Shown: piece after piece, positions 35,252-42,705 of the stretch | Numbering within the stretch: the stretch's first letter is position 1 | Layout: every line of letters starts with the position of its first letter | Origin: Plicaturopsis crispa FD-325 SS-3 | Lineage: Eukaryota > Basidiomycota > Agaricomycetes > Amylocorticiales > Amylocorticiaceae | Length of the DNA: 42,705 bases | NCBI GenBank assembly: GCA_000827205.1 | Contig: KN832554.1 | Span: 2,435,126 to 2,477,830 of the forward strand | Direction of reading: 5' to 3' | Program-made: the position numbers and the translations under genes | Notes under the pieces: model-generated | What the model saw: the letters and a program-made list of their open reading frames with translations, nothing else | Told to the model about the DNA's origin: nothing | The model's database searches: none

Positions 35252-37401
35252 ATGGCGTCTACATCTGCCACGTCGACGGCCCACTCCCAGGGAGAGGCAA
35301 CCTCGCCGCCGAAAGGCCCCTACACCACGGTTGAGGTTCTCGACTCTGTACGGTCAGAGCAGATCCACGCCGGCCCTTACCCCATAGAACTTGAAAAAGC
35401 TGGCCCCGAAGTAGCCAGGAACTTTAGTTTGTTTTCCATAAGTATGTTTTTTCCTCTCCTATCAATGCCGCTCGCGAAGCAAAGTTGCTAACGCCCGAAA
35501 CTCGTAGTTGGCTTAGCTTATGCTATTTTAAATTCCTGGACGGCTATGGCAGCGTCACTCTCCGTGGCGCTGCCTTCGGGAGGACCTACTGCAGTCATTT
35601 GGGGCATAGTGGTGTCGATGATTGGCAATCTGGCAATGGCTGCCAGCTTGGCAGAAATATGTCATGTCTATCCGACGTCTGGAGGACAGTACCAGTGAGT
35701 TGTCACCTCTTCCAGCTCGACTCTCACATAGTGACAGGATTCAATCACAGCTGGTCGGCTATCCTTGCCCCTGCCGATTGGGCGCCAGCGATATCCTGGA
35801 CTACCGGTTGGTTTGCAGTCGCCGGATGGTGGGCGCTGGTCGCTACTACAGGTTCGCCCCGTCGTTTCATCACATATGCAGTCCTTAACGCGCGCTTGAT
35901 GCGCAGGCTCCCTTGCTGGTCAGCTTATAACGGGCGTAATAGCCCTTATGCACGAGGCGTACGTTCTCGAGAGGTGGCATATATTTTTAATTTATATCAC
36001 ATTCATTATCGGAGCATGGTAAGCCAACTATCCTAAAACAATGACGCCCGCTCATCTCTCGTACCAGCCTCTTGAACATCTTCGGAGTCCGCCTACTGCC
36101 CATGATAAACAGAGCAGCTATCACATGGTGCGTTAAGAACTCACTTTCAGTCTCATTGCGCGACTCAACCTTGTCACCAGGTCCCTCGCAGGTGCAGCAC
36201 TAATTTGCATAGTCTGCCTTGCGTGCGCTTCGCCAAACTACCAGTCTGGAAAGTTCGTTTTCGGAACGTTCATAAATGAAACTGGGTGGAACGACGGTGC
36301 CGCTTGGATCCTTGGCCTACTTCAATCGTCTTTCGGTCTCACCGCATATGATGCCGTTAGCCACATGGTAGAGGAGGTCAGTTCATGTCATGAGCACTGT
36401 CGAAAGCCTTTTGACTAACTCATCCGTCCGCAGATGCCTCAGCCACACATCAATGCGCCGAAGGCCATGGTTCTTGCCGTCATCATCGGCTCCGTGTCCT
36501 CGTTCATATTCCTGATCATCCTCCTCTTTTGCATCACCGCTGTGGAGGACGTCATCTCTTCCTCCGCAGGCGCCCTTCTTGCTGCCATCTACCAGGCAAC
36601 AGGGTCCATCGCCGGCTCCGTCTGCCTACAGATGTTCCCAATTGTTTCGATGGCCTTCGCCGCCCAGGGCATCCTCACCGCGTCCTCGCGCATGTCGTAT
36701 TCCTTCGCGCGCGACGGAGGACTACCATTCTCCCCGTTCTTCGCGCAGATGCGCCCTAACGGCGTCCCCGTCAACGCAGTGCTCCTGTCGACTGTGCTGG
36801 TGATCATCTTTGGGCTTGTGTACCTCGGCTCGAGCAGCGCGCTCAACGCTATCCTGTCGAGCTCTGTTGTTGCATTGAATGTATCGTATTCGATTCCGAG
36901 TGAGTTAGCTTATTCAGTTTTTTACCAACCATCTTCTAACATGATGCCTGCGTAGTTGCACTTCTTCTGTGCCGCGGACGGCATCTGCTAGCACCTCCAT
37001 CTCTCCCCAAGCCTACAATGACCCTCGGCCCTATACTCGGCCCAATTTGCAACGTCATTGGCCTTGCATTCACCGCTCTGACGACCGTGTTCTTCCTGTT
37101 CCCTCCAGAACTTCCTGTCACCGGGTAAGTCATCCCTTGCGAAACGCACAAGTACTTCGGCTGATCGATCGGCCCTCATAGCACAAACATGAATTACACC
37201 GTCTGCGTGTTCTTCATCGTTTTCTGTGTCGCAATGGGGACGTGGATATTCAAGGGCCGCAAAGAGTTCACCGGGCCGCGCGACCTTGGTGCGCTCCTTG
37301 AACTTGCGCGCGCCGAGGCGGTCCCTCCCACGCCCAGCGCAGAGAAGAAAAGGGAGGAGGGCGGCGCGAGCGTGCAGGAGGTGAAGTCGCGGCCAGAGTA
37401 A
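35252..37401 (+). CDS. APC-superfamily amino acid/choline permease
   Basis: A multi-exon gene starts at ATG 35252 and ends at TAA 37399-37401. Exon 1 is 35252-35441 and splices into IIGLAYAILNSWTAMAASLS (start of helix 1). Further pieces read GGPTAVIWGIVVSMIGNLAMAASLAEICHVYPTSGGQY, PADWAPAISWTTGWFAVAGWW, LLNIFGVRLLPMINRA, FGLTAYDAVSHMVEEMPQP, SFARDGGLPFSPFFAQ and a C-terminal ALLLCRGRHL. These are the landmarks of the fungal APC group that includes GABA and choline permeases. The soluble N-terminus (about 60 aa) and the acidic Lys/Glu-rich C-tail (AEKKREEGG) are cytoplasmic. About 12 membrane segments are expected in the plasma membrane. Substrate specificity cannot be assigned from sequence alone. 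Confidence 0.93.
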
Positions 37402-38137
37402 GAAGCTCGTTTGCTTCCAAGACGTCGCTCAAAATAATTTATAATTCGTGTTGTTGCTGTTACTACCCGGCGTTGCCAATGCTGTGCCAATGTCCTCGCA
37501 TACTACTTACTACAGTACATATTTTACTAGACTTTGTTGCATCCATGTTTCTGCCTCTTTCCACGATGAGATCGCCGGCCGTCGATTGGTGAGGTCAACG
37601 GTCGATTTATCCCAAGAAGGAAAGTGCTGTGCTTTCCGGCGGTCCTCCGAAAATAGGTTTTGTTCCTGGTCATGTAGTTTCGGTTAGGCTCGATATATCC
37701 AGCCGCTACGCCACTCACACGTTCGGGCGTAGCGGCTGGAAATACTGGGCAGTCACATGGCGCGTCACAGCTTTCTCCGCCAAGTGTGACTATGGACTTA
37801 GAATTTTCGCGCGTTCAGATAAACATGTACTTCGTCGTCGCTGTTACCGACATGGCCTCAACTTGAAAAAAAAAAGTGTGATAAGTTGCCTACTGTAGAA
37901 CGAGTTTCGGGGGGTCAGGAATGTATCTATTGAGGTCCGAAAAAACATTTTTTTGTGCAGTGTTTTGGCACTTCGTGCTAAAGTCACCCCATCTTCGAGT
38001 AAGTAATCTGGTCCGTTGTGGTACATACACGTCTCGACACTCAACAGCACAAGAGACTTGATGAGAGCGTATAGATAGTAGCCAGTATCTACAAGTCAAA
38101 AGAGTACAGGTCTGTATAGAGGGTATCCACAGTCCGA
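37402..38137. other. convergent intergenic region with a hairpin
   Basis: About 735 bp between the permease and the DUF6589 gene. It has a perfect 15-bp inverted repeat (separate entry) and AT-rich stretches near 37865-37960. No gene is seen. Confidence 0.5.
37698..37740. repeat. perfect 15-bp inverted repeat (hairpin)
   Basis: TCCAGCCGCTACGCC at 37698-37712 is followed after 13 nt by its exact reverse complement GGCGTAGCGGCTGGA at 37726-37740. The GC-rich stem would be very stable in RNA or single-stranded DNA. It lies between two convergent genes, 0.3 kb past the permease stop. Possible roles are a transcription end signal, a MITE-type remnant or a structured RNA. None can be chosen from sequence alone. 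Confidence 0.8.
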
Positions 38138-41100
38138 CTAAGCAATATCACCCATGTCCGCTTCGTACTCCTCTTCGTCGTCCATCTCTCCCTCAAACAT
38201 CCGGTAGTCAAGATCATCCTCTTGCCCCCCCATGTCCTCAGCATCCATGTCAAGAGACACATCTGCGGCGGTGTCCCTCGACAGCGTCGTCTCCTCGTCA
38301 TCCTCGTCCTCCACTGAGTCAATCCCAAACGCGTCGAAATCTTCGTCCTCCTCCATTTCGTCGTCGTCGCCTGAATCCGCATCGTCTCCGTTAGGATCCT
38401 CCACGGCCTCCAGCATTGGGCTACCAGCTCGTGGTGTCGACGGTGCCATCGGTGGAGCACCCATCGGGACATCCCCATGCGCCGGTGTTTCTGCCATGGG
38501 TCGTGTCGTGTCTCCCGAGTCGTCTGCGGCGTCATCGGCACCAACTACTGGCGTAAGGCGACGCCGAGCCTGCAAGCGCTGGAACGCGCGGTTGTACTCG
38601 TGAAGTGGGTTCGTGTTTGCATCCGTTAGTAACCGCACACCTGCACCAATAATGTCGACTGTGGGGCTGTCATCCTCGTCAAGGATGCGACCTTTCTCTA
38701 GGTAGACTTCATGATCTGCGAGGCTCCGCATGAGCTCGGGGATGTCGTTCTTCAGATTGAGTGCGGCATGGCGGTTCCCGTGGTAGGAGCCCAAAACATT
38801 GTTCATGGAGGTAACGAGATGCCGGAGAATGTTAACGCAGGGACCGATCATTCCGAGCCAGTCCCACGACGCGGAGCTGCCGTGCGCTTGGTAGAAATTC
38901 TAGTAGTAATGCTATTAGCGACAACCGTTGTCTAAAATCTGCCGATTCGTACCTTTATCCAGAAGTTCATATGCTCCTGCATCAGATCGACCTCGACCCA
39001 TGCATTTGGTCGGCCACTGGGATTGACTAGCCAGTTATTGAAGACAATGTCACTAGTAGGGAAGAAAAGGACGTTAGGTGCAATCAAGAGCTGGAAAACA
39101 CGCAGTGAAGGCGCACCGTATTCCCTTCGGCCAAACATGGGCAATATTATGACACAGATGAAGCATTTCGTGCGCGTACTTTGTCCGACCGCTGCCGCGA
39201 AAGCTCAGTGCCCAAACTTTCAAAATCAGCACGACCCGCCCGGAGTCGCCACATTTGATTGCGTCAGTGAATTCGCGCGACAGCAGGGCGTCGCGCAGGA
39301 AGAGTACAGCATTTTCATAAACCATGTCACCGCCGGCACCACTAGTCTCCCGTTTCCATCGCATTTCGTCGACGGCGGCGGAATCCGTGTAACGGTTGAC
39401 AATTTCGAGGGCATGGCTCTTGAGTATAGGCCACGAGTCAATGGTGTCGGCATAATCATCGAGGGTCGGCTTTTGGGACACGAGGAGCAGGAGATGTAGT
39501 ACGCGTGCATAGAGCGAAACAAAGACGAGATCCCGGCATGTACGGAAAGGTGGAAGGGATGTGAGCAAGATCGGATGCCTGTGTAGAACGGTGTTATGAA
39601 ACGCGAGACATCCAGGGTTCCGAGTGCCAGCATTAGGCTTCCCCCAGTGCGTCACGAAGAAACCGTGCATGTCAGCTATCTTAGCGTGGAACAGTCCGGG
39701 AATCCAGACACCCCATCCGAAACCCTCATAACCCCCTTCGTGGCCGGCGCGTATATTGACGAGCGCGCGAAGACGAGCGATAGAGAGCTGGTCGCCCGCA
39801 AAGAACTTGACGTATCGAAGCCAGCGGACAAGCCTTTTGATCCAAAGGACATCAAAGGTCGCGTCAATGACCTCGCTATTGCCAACAATCGTGGACTCGT
39901 CGATCTCGACGGGAGGAAGAGGATGGAGGGGTGTACGGTGAACTTCAATCTTGTTGTCGGTCGTCGGTGCGGAGAGCTCAAGCGCTTCACGAAACTTGGC
40001 GAATTTTTCTCCGCCATGCGTAATAATTATGCGCAGGACACAGTGCACAAGGCACGCATCCAGAGTCTCCGACTCAACTTCATTCAACAGTATGTCGAAG
40101 AGAGATAGGGGAGGCGCACGGTCGAACGCAGACGTTAGGTCGGACACCAGCATATCCTCCAGATTGGCTTTCCATAGCGGCCAGATCGTAGTGCATGTTC
40201 CGTTTTCTTGTGTATCTAGCAGATACGCAAGCCTTAATAATTATCAACACGACAGAAATGCAAATGACTTACCGGTTCGACCCAATATTTGCTCAGCAGC
40301 TCGAAAAACCATGTTGATGTTATCGTATGAGGCGGCGAAAAGACCTGTCGCTGCGACGCCCCGTGCCATGCTGACCATGGCCCCTGAAAGTGTTCGGAGA
40401 GTGCCTGCTCGTCCCACCTTCATGAGGTTTGGATCGAGTACTGGAGACATACCGTCGGGAAGGCATTGATCAGCTGCGGTTGGCATGCCGGAGGTAGAGG
40501 GATGGGCATCGGCGGTGCCGGGAAGTGGAGTAGGGGGACAAGCGGGGCCCTTCGTTGGTGTCTTCTTCTTGGGTTTTGCGGTCAGGTTGTTGTAGCTCTC
40601 GGTAAGGCCCAGGTGGGAGGCCACAGTCATGGTCTGGCGCTGTGTTCCTGTAGCGAAAAAATAGAGACCCATGACACGCTTCACATAGTTGTTGGCATAA
40701 CTGTATTCGCCGAGTAACTGTAGAGCGGACGACGTGATAACCTGGCCATGCACGAACACAATTAGGGACACAAACACAATCACACACATTAGAGAACGGT
40801 CGTACCATGGACTTTTTGAGCATCCGCGCAGGTGAGCCTGCTTTGAGTTGACGTGCGGAGGTGGCAAATGCCGCGAAGATGTCCATCGTCACCGTCGCAG
40901 TCTCCTTCAGGAGGACGTGCATTTTCTTCATGCTGAAATCAAGGACGAACTTCGCATCGAGGGGCCTGTTGGCTGAGCGCAAATCCTCCGACGCAGTGAG
41001 ATCCTTCGCTTCGCGATGGACAACCTGCCGTATATAGGTCACGGCCCAGTCATGGACTTGCGAACGTGCAGCAGGCGGGTTTTCTTTTGAAGCCCAGAGG

Positions 41101-41648
41101 GTGAGAATACGAGGGGCAACGGTACGGTCCCTAAAGAAACCTTCCCACCGAGTCTTCCCGTTCTTGTACACAGGATCGAACACATGGAGCATGAGATCAC
41201 CTAGCGTCAAGCTGCGAGACACCAGGCTCTGGAGGATGCCATCCAGAAAGTGTATCCTGTCGGCCGCTGCACGCTCCGTGGCGTCGAGAGCCTCCTGAGC
41301 CTGCGCTGCGTCCGCGGCTATCTTGGCTTCACGGGCCGACACAAGGGTTTGTGCGCGCTTGCGCATTTGCTTGCGCTTTTTCTGCGCCGTCTGCTCTGCC
41401 CTTGTCCCAGTGATGGGGCTGGTCATAACGGGCCCGTCACTGGATGGCACGGGGAGAGATGAAGCGCGGTGGCGGCGGATAGGAGTTTGCGGGGGGGACT
41501 GGGTATGTGTTCGGGACGATGGAGAAGGCGGCGGGATTGGAAATGCGGCGGGGAGAGGTGCGGCAGCTGAGTCGGTGTCGTCATCATCGAAGGAAATGAG
41601 ATGGTCGAGGTTGAGGACTGCATAGCGATTGCTGTGAGGACGTGGCAT
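38138..41648 (-). CDS. DUF6589 family protein (5 exons, intact)
   Basis: Exons 41648-40806, 40741-40273, 40215-39117, 39052-38953 and 38899-38138 join in frame to 1090 aa. The N-terminus is Pro/Ser-rich, then Ala/Arg/Gln helical (KKRKQMRKRAQTLVSAREAK). The centre contains hallmark phrases of the Agaricomycete DUF6589 domain as I remember it: GDQLSIARLRALVNIRAGHEGG, FGWGVWIPGLFHAKIADMHGFF, FRTCRDLVFVSLYARVLH, MVYENAVLFLRDALLSREF and IVFNNWLVNPSGRPNAWVEVDL. The C-terminus is very acidic (Asp/Glu runs). Function is unknown. The gene is divergent from a RecQ-like helicase, with 158 bp between start codons; this pairing suggests a joint unit, perhaps a mobile or selfish element, which is inference. 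Confidence 0.85.
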
Positions 41649-41806
41649 TGTATTCACCGCAGTGTGTCGGTGGTCAGAATTGAAAAAATATATGTGCGGC
41701 GCGCGCACGTGCCCATGTCCGGGCGCGGGTGAACTTGAAACGTCGGAGCAGAGACCCTTTCTTCAAACCCCCCTCCAAGTCTGAAGAGCACTTTACACCT
41801 CACAAG
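41649..41806. promoter_or_regulatory. 158-bp bidirectional promoter
   Basis: The whole interval between the DUF6589 start codon and the helicase start codon must hold both promoters. It contains AAAAAATATATG near 41685-41696, a TATA-like tract. Confidence 0.45.
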
Positions 41807-42298
41807 ATGGCACCGGTGCCAGTACGAGTGCTCCTCGAGCGCCGACAGAATCGTCGGCGGGCTTCACAGGAGCGAAAGGAAACACTCCCGGACAGATCGC
41901 CTGTTACTCCTGAGGAGCTCGAAGGCCTCAGCACATTGATTAAGGAGAAATTCAACTGGACTCACGAGCCAAGGCCATTTCAGATGGAGGCCATAGAGGC
42001 GCAACTGAAGAAAAAAGATGTCCTGGTCCATGCGGGAACGGGGTTGGGGAAGACGGCAATTGCGGCGGGTCCGCACGCGCACCCGAGTGCGAAAGGGAAA
42101 GTGACGTTGATGGTCTCCCCGTTGATAGCCCTTCACGAAGAAATGGTTAGTACAGTCGATGCCACCATGCCCCCACCAACTTACCAATCTCTTACATTGA
42201 AGGCTGAGACCTTTCGTGACGAGTTCAACTTGAAGGCCACAGCAATAAATAGCTCGAACGGTGCATCAGGAAAACCCTGGATTCTTAAAAATCCTTAA
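41807..42298 (+). pseudogene. truncated RecQ-like DEAD/DEAH helicase
   Basis: Exon 1, 41807-42145, starts MAPVPVRVLLERRQ. It contains FNWTHEPRPFQMEAIEAQL (the RecQ-type zone around motif 0), HAGTGLGKTAI (Walker A/motif I) and MVSPLIALHEEM (motif Ia). A 57-nt intron then leads to 42203-42298: AETFRDEFNLKATAINSSNGAS, then unrelated residues and TAA, for 144 aa in all. RecQ helicases continue with a DEAH box and a second RecA-like domain, which are absent. The break falls near 42265 and is followed by AT-rich DNA, so a mobile element or deletion probably truncated the gene. Downstream sequence to the window end shows no helicase. An active helicase from this copy is unlikely. Confidence 0.75.
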
Positions 42299-42705
42299 GG
42301 CTTGCTAATTTGGCATCAATTTTGCATAACGGCGGTAAAGAGCACTAATGTCTCTAAGTCCCTAAGTTTTCATAAGTTAGAATGCTTCATGCTAAGTAGT
42401 CTAACTGTTATACAAGTATGATTGTAATTGGTATCAGTGTATGTCCACTGTAACTCATTGTAATGGCATTTGAAGCCGAACTCCAAATTGTATTTGTGAT
42501 CTTCAATTGCAATGTTTCTCGAGAAAAGTGTATTATATTGTCAAGTAGCGTAGCACAGGAGAGTGTACTTAAATCAATATGTACTAGTCTTCTAAACGAC
42601 GTTATTGCGAAAAACGTGTATGCAACGTCGCGCACCTGTCGTTGACGTCCACCTGCATGGTGCATACACGGTCCATGTCGCGGTGCAGCGCATCTGCACG
42701 GGCGA
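42299..42705. other. AT-rich sequence downstream of the helicase break
   Basis: About 300 bp with distinctly lower GC than the rest of the window, returning to GC-rich sequence after about 42600. No recognisable product. It may be an inserted element, or the 3' flank. Confidence 0.4.

Follow-up and report, generated by a model that had tools for sequence, protein, structure and literature searches.

The window analysed here, a stretch of 42,705 nucleotides from the basidiomycete Plicaturopsis crispa FD-325 SS-3 (contig KN832554.1, positions 2,435,126 to 2,477,830 of the forward strand), carries a gene for a DUF6589 protein placed head-to-head with the remnant of a RecQ-like helicase gene. We propose that the two form the coding portion of a single helicase-bearing DNA transposon of the DDE type, AcademH-like, with DUF6589 as its transposase, a reading to which we give a probability of about 0.82. 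In its favour, the copy in the window is bounded by short inverted termini and a 9-bp target-site duplication, such ends recur around other copies, the two genes occur together at most DUF6589 loci of the genome, and they have descended together.

The window copy has defined ends

The element in the window spans positions 37685-47522, its right part lying beyond the window, and AGTTTCGGT flanks it on both sides (Table 1). A terminal block that lies 230-450 bp behind the DUF6589 stop codon is more conserved than the genes themselves, which are about 66-69% identical to those of the window in the copy on contig C14 and 72-76% identical in the copy on C15, and other genomic copies of this block start at the same place, window position 37685 (query base 25 or 26). 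A short relative of about 708 bp at C1:2411.9-2412.6k, which has neither gene, is flanked at both ends by GGCCAAATC, again a 9-bp duplication. Because both ends of this relative are known, the far ends of complete copies could be predicted. Specifically, a query with the helicase-side end of the C15 copy located where the window copy ends on the right, directly before AGTTTCGGT; the C14 copy is flanked on both sides by GACTTTGTA and the C15 copy by TGCAAATGG.

Within these ends, the DUF6589 gene runs through exons 41648-40806, 40741-40273, 40215-39117, 39052-38953 and 38899-38138. The intact protein that a preliminary description of the locus had predicted is confirmed, since splicing of four GT..AG introns gives a frame of 1090 residues with 0 internal stops, and the Pfam family PF20231 (DUF6589) matches the main exon frame with an E-value of 1.8e-107 and the last exon frame with 3.8e-8. 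With 360 bits for the main exon frame against a Pfam cut-off of 27, the protein is a clear member of this family of unknown function. The head-to-head arrangement and its short spacer were likewise described correctly, the measured distance from ATG to ATG being 158 bp. The helicase starts with the ATG at 41807, divergent from DUF6589, and the remnant comprises about 133 residues; its 204-residue open frame matches the start of the DEAD domain PF00270 with an E-value of 7e-11. The description of this gene as a RecQ-like fragment also holds, intact relatives matching RecQ helicases, and its cause can be named: similarity to the C15 copy stops at 42263, and the gene is a fragment because a dispersed repeat has inserted at 42264. 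This repeat gives 14 genome rows at E<=0.001, including the window itself, and one other row, on C1, is 100% identical. In the window copy, the DUF6589 frame is open and the two ends are present, but the helicase has been destroyed, so that any movement would depend on a helicase provided by a different copy.

Ends and 9-bp duplications recur in other copies

Ends were examined in 19 pairs of DUF6589 and helicase genes, comprising 3 divergent (head-to-head) pairs and 16 of the 17 convergent (tail-to-tail) ones, with the pair at C5:563k left out. An exact 9-bp target-site duplication is found in 13 of the 19 (3 divergent, 10 convergent). For the convergent scan, both termini had to start with YAG and to agree at 6 or more of 8 bases. 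Under this criterion, a 9-bp duplication with matching termini is present at 10 of 16 convergent loci, against 2 of 240 mismatched pairs of helicase and DUF6589 flanks. Duplications of 7, 8, 10 and 11 bp occur at 1, 1, 0 and 0 of the 16 loci, respectively, and at 8, 1, 0 and 0 of the 240 mismatched pairs. The helicase lies inside the mapped ends wherever ends were found, and the end motif YAGNCT is present at 24 of 28 ends of convergent and divergent copies. The 15 collected 9-bp duplications have no common core. One end candidate, at position 1239020 of C6:1239-1246k, was rejected, its motif being unpaired with the other side.

Table 1. Features of the window copy and related elements with mapped ends (window positions unless a contig is given)
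Feature	Position	Strand	Details
Left target-site duplication, AGTTTCGGT	37676..37684		identical 9 bp after the right terminus, C1:2482648 (window 47523, outside the window)
Left terminus, TAGGCTCG	37685..37692	+	short inverted repeat with the right terminus, TAGACTCG; right end at C1:2482647
Conserved terminal region	37685..37812		C14 copy 90% identical; C15 copy 85% identical as far as 37910
Subterminal hairpin	37698..37740	+	15-bp perfect stem, starting 13 nucleotides inside the terminus (stem scan)
DUF6589 gene	38138..41648	-	five exons, 1090 amino acids; likely transposase; candidate catalytic residues D421, D579, E830
Divergent intergenic region, ATG to ATG	41649..41806		158 bp
RecQ-like helicase gene, 5' part only	41807..42263	+	exons 41807-42145 and 42203-42263; cut by insertion
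Unrelated dispersed repeat inside the helicase gene	42264..42705		442 bases; repeat matches across the genome
Convergent elements with mapped ends, C5	37259-43760; 873045-879189; 939073-945385; 1217502-1223980; 1380370-1387064
Convergent elements with mapped ends, other contigs	C12:956923-973662; C4:900687-908100; C13:544915-551284; C28:61596-68433
Convergent element, C18	outer 312843-320874; nested second pair 313713-320727

The two genes recur together and share ancestry

All counts of recurrence refer to the window's own 33.2-Mb assembly. PF20231 gives 56 exon matches there, of which 54 are over the cut-off, and grouping by position yields 25 loci over the cut-off. Searches with pieces of the helicase find a RecQ-like helicase within 5 kb at 20 of these 25 loci, a co-occurrence for which chance is negligible (assuming 40 helicase loci per genome). 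The preliminary description had asked whether the head-to-head arrangement recurs. The pair does, but that order is confined to three copies, C14, C15 and the window, which make up the window's subfamily, while the other 17 pairs are tail-to-tail. Eight of these lie on C5 (38k, 238k, 563k, 876k, 942k, 1219k, 1382k and 1723k) and the remainder at C1:201k, C4, C6:1243k, C6:1631k, C12, C13, C18, C23 and C28; at C5:563k, the helicase is only a fragment, about 4.7 kb away. The same counts answer the two findings that, according to that description, would speak against a mobile pair: within this genome, the pair is not unique to this locus, and DUF6589 is neither single-copy nor without a helicase partner elsewhere. 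The five loci without a helicase match (C15:5.6k, C2:515/538k, C1:216k, C24:232k and C2:2028k) are fragments, short copies or split copies, one among those retrieved consisting partly of N. Among viral contigs, no DUF6589 relatives were found, and of 9 stretches that matched a helicase pattern, 0 were confirmed as relatives.

DUF6589 and the helicase have been inherited as one unit and share their ancestry. Across 18 loci, pairwise distances of the two proteins correlate with a Mantel r of 0.732, with 0 of 20,000 permutations as high, and both trees contain the same seven clades, including their inner order; the order among the seven clades differs, with weak support. The window copy, whose helicase is cut, and C5:563k, where only a fragment is present, were excluded from the trees, and C12 and C23 entered as partial sequences. 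Since the head-to-head order is restricted to the window's clade, the gene order has switched within one transposon lineage. The suggestion that the pair forms a two-gene mobile system with a helicase is therefore supported in this genome, by termini and 9-bp duplications in 13 of 19 pairs together with agreeing gene trees.

The helicase partner itself is RecQ-like in its motor segment, with matches of the C15 copy to structures of RecQ and WRN and to the model TIGR00614. It differs from the RecQ family in that scores stay below the curated NCBIfam cut-offs (single exons scanned) and in that the C-terminal frame of the C15 copy shows neither an RQC nor an HRDC domain. Of the 18 motor domains extracted, with that of C23 truncated, the motifs TG.GK and DE.H are present in 17 of the 17 that reach them and Q..GR in 16 of the 16 that reach it.

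DUF6589 is a candidate DDE-type transposase

At 20 of 21 loci, the region upstream of the Pfam match contains a first motif, in which a run of hydrophobic residues precedes DN[IVLF][NQD]. The PF20231 model starts downstream of this conserved motif and therefore omits the putative first catalytic aspartate. In an alignment of 7 sequences, the aspartate in GDQ, a histidine that follows 35 residues later, and the D and E of DLMQE are invariant, and these columns are also invariant in an alignment of 21 rows, among the rows that reach them. The acidic residues correspond to D421, D579 and E830 of the window protein and may form a catalytic D, D, E triad such as that of DDE transposases, which they resemble in spacing and context. 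Between the main exons of the window and C15 copies (370 codons), the nonsynonymous divergence (dN) is 0.051 and the synonymous divergence (dS) 1.66; the protein has therefore been under strong constraint, that is, purifying selection, since these copies parted. No other transposase, HUH or nuclease domain exceeds its Pfam cut-off in nine open frames of the C15 and C5:37-44k elements. For XPG_I, 5 matches are listed in the genome by a search that scores only the best candidates, and 0 of them lie within 80 kb of a DUF6589 locus.

Hairpins lie behind many of the termini

Folded as DNA, the first 55 nucleotides at the left end of the window element reach -19.3 kcal/mol with a z-score of -6.2, and the helicase-side end of the C15 copy forms a longer hairpin with a z-score of -7.2. 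Of 25 ends, 13 carry a perfectly paired stem, 8 bp or longer, that starts 8-18 nucleotides inside the terminus; among random 120-mers taken from the retrieved loci, 29 of 2000 do. Outside the window's subfamily, 10 of 20 ends fold with a z-score of -2 or lower. The sequences of the stems vary between subfamilies, and in the C5:37-44k element, whose ends have no such stem, the first 90 bases are identical at both ends. A candidate for another inverted repeat, at window 37757-37810 behind the subterminal hairpin, did no better than shuffled sequences and was dropped. By eye, four ends at three sequence-divergent loci (C4, C13 and C5:1219k) share a motif like GAYAGTCGWT in their hairpin loops, possibly a recognition site of the transposase.

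Comparison with known transposons and alternative explanations

AcademH, a helicase-encoding lineage of the Academ DNA transposons, is attributed to Kojima (2020). Papers that cite the lineage describe target-site duplications of 9 or 10 bp and an encoded helicase (PMC10045372), a low copy number in Basidiomycota, Ascomycota and Mucoromycota (PMC10799480) and, for Academ, a RecQ helicase (PMC3627910). In line with these features, duplications of 9 bp are found in 13 of 19 pairs here and of 10 bp in 0 under the same criterion, and an SF2/RecQ helicase lies near 20 of 25 loci and inside the mapped ends where these were found. AcademH elements are not known to encode an XPG nuclease, and of the 5 XPG_I matches listed here, 0 lie at a DUF6589 locus. 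We call the units AcademH-like because their duplication length and helicase fit AcademH as thus described; the trait that defines the lineage, a DDE transposase related to those of Academ, would here have to be DUF6589. The open-licence literature on DUF6589/PF20231 in PubMed Central yielded no link from DUF6589 to AcademH-type elements.

In the mechanism that we propose, DUF6589 would act as a DDE-type transposase: it would bind to the short termini, and to the hairpin behind them if there is one, excise the element and reinsert it at a cut staggered by 9 bp, in a cut-and-paste route. The RecQ-like helicase would serve as an auxiliary engine, opening or resolving DNA either at the hairpin ends or during a repair step; that it acts on the hairpin ends is a natural guess.

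Several observations weigh against this reading. The DDE fold is unsupported by structure: the sole model, made from the window's main exon frame with no alignment, has a predicted local distance difference test (pLDDT) score of 40 and is unusable, and a comparison of the profile with solved structures gives no match up to an E-value of 10. No DN motif was found at the locus C6:1631k, whose PF20231 match begins only at profile position 56, and dS is saturated in the other three comparisons of copies. As to the ends, the criterion was written after the matches of a first scan had been seen, and YAG is built into it for 10 loci; 4 of the 28 ends deviate from the motif (TAGGTT in the inner C18 pair, TAGACC at one end each of C5:939k and C5:1380k). 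Ends were not found at 6 of the 16 convergent loci (C1:201k, C6:1243k, C6:1631k, C5:238k, C5:1723k and C23), three of which contain N, and no empty site is available for comparison with the mapped insertions. The hairpins are not universal either, 12 of 25 ends having no perfect 8-bp stem, including both ends of C5:37-44k, C5:873-879k and the outer C18 element; a stem is also missing at the helicase-side ends of C13 and C5:1219k. Five of the 13 stem-bearing ends come from the subfamily of the window copy and do not count as independent cases, and covariation in the window-type hairpin is weak, with one compensated pair and 31 of 500 shuffles as high.

The hairpins raise the question of whether the units might instead form a superfamily of their own, a hybrid of cut-and-paste and peel-off transposition in which the helicase would extrude or resolve the subterminal hairpins, the DUF6589 enzyme would cut structured, partly single-stranded ends, and hairpins would have been lost where the inverted repeats are long and perfect; we regard this as fairly unlikely. 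The strong hairpins near the ends, 10-13 nucleotides from the terminus in the window's subfamily, together with a helicase gene could also recall a rolling-circle, Helitron-like element. Helitrons are not known to have target-site duplications or inverted termini and encode an HUH/Pif1 protein, whereas here 9-bp duplications and inverted termini are present, the helicase resembles RecQ and not Pif1, and the scanned frames contain no HUH domain, which, unless the duplications arose in some other way, makes a Helitron-like origin extremely improbable. A Kolobok transposon of the KolobokH kind is very unlikely. For KolobokH, a RecQ helicase after a Kolobok transposase is described in fungi (PMC9587614). 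Kolobok inserts at TTAA and is not known to produce 9-bp duplications, and the duplications here have a different length and share no core; the convergent or divergent orientation of the two genes is a further difference from KolobokH.

Two further readings would separate DUF6589 from the act of transposition. It could be an accessory or cargo protein of an element whose transposase is encoded elsewhere, which would suit a DDE core without structural proof and the gene-less relative on C1, whose ends, shared with complete copies, and own duplication suggest movement in trans. We consider this decidedly unlikely, as DUF6589 and the helicase are the sole domains over Pfam cut-offs in the nine frames of two elements, both genes are kept together across deeply divergent subfamilies, and the D...D...E pattern in DUF6589 is conserved. 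Alternatively, the helicases could be telomere-linked RecQ helicases with DUF6589 as a subtelomeric passenger. Subtelomeric RecQ genes do amplify in fungi, as noted for Agaricus bisporus var. burnettii (PMC7473861), and the paired copy on C23 is found within 6 kb of the end of its contig. The majority of the 20 pairs are well inside contigs, though, and 13 of 19 examined pairs have individual insertion sites with duplications, so that a telomeric origin is scarcely conceivable.

Other observations on the loci

Over its last 859 bp, the window copy shares 99.4% identity with the C15 copy, against about 75% for its DUF6589 side and the start of its helicase; the window copy is likely a patchwork that arose by recombination or gene conversion between copies. 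On C18, a single set of DUF6589 and helicase genes lies within two pairs of ends, one nested in the other and each accompanied by a 9-bp duplication of its own; one element seems to lie inside another. Solo or gene-less ends also occur: a 98% similar end at the contig end (C12:1-375), and, at C1:3876-3878k, a pair of DUF6589-side ends that point the same way and are separated by 1.2 kb. C5 holds 8 of the 25 DUF6589 loci but 5.9% of the assembly (binomial p 6e-5) and may be a transposon-rich or low-recombination chromosome. RecQ-like matches without a DUF6589 partner were seen at C3:1689450-1690770, C6:1124162, C28:55927, C5:330846 and C5:1816120; these may be host RecQ genes or remnants. Upstream of the window element, a plus-strand gene at 36419-37401, which by eye resembles an amino-acid permease, reaches its stop codon about 280 bp before the element.

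Implications

The AcademH-like reading assigns a likely function to DUF6589, a Pfam family for which none is known, and accounts for its position beside RecQ-like helicases, the two being genes of one transposon. Such DUF6589 and RecQ-like genes would accordingly have to be counted as mobile DNA in gene counts. Ends of the YAG type, a 9-bp duplication and often a hairpin 8-18 nucleotides inside offer a signature with which more copies may be sought. Deeply divergent pairs of putative transposase and helicase within one genome, finally, provide material for studying the role of RecQ helicases in DNA transposition.

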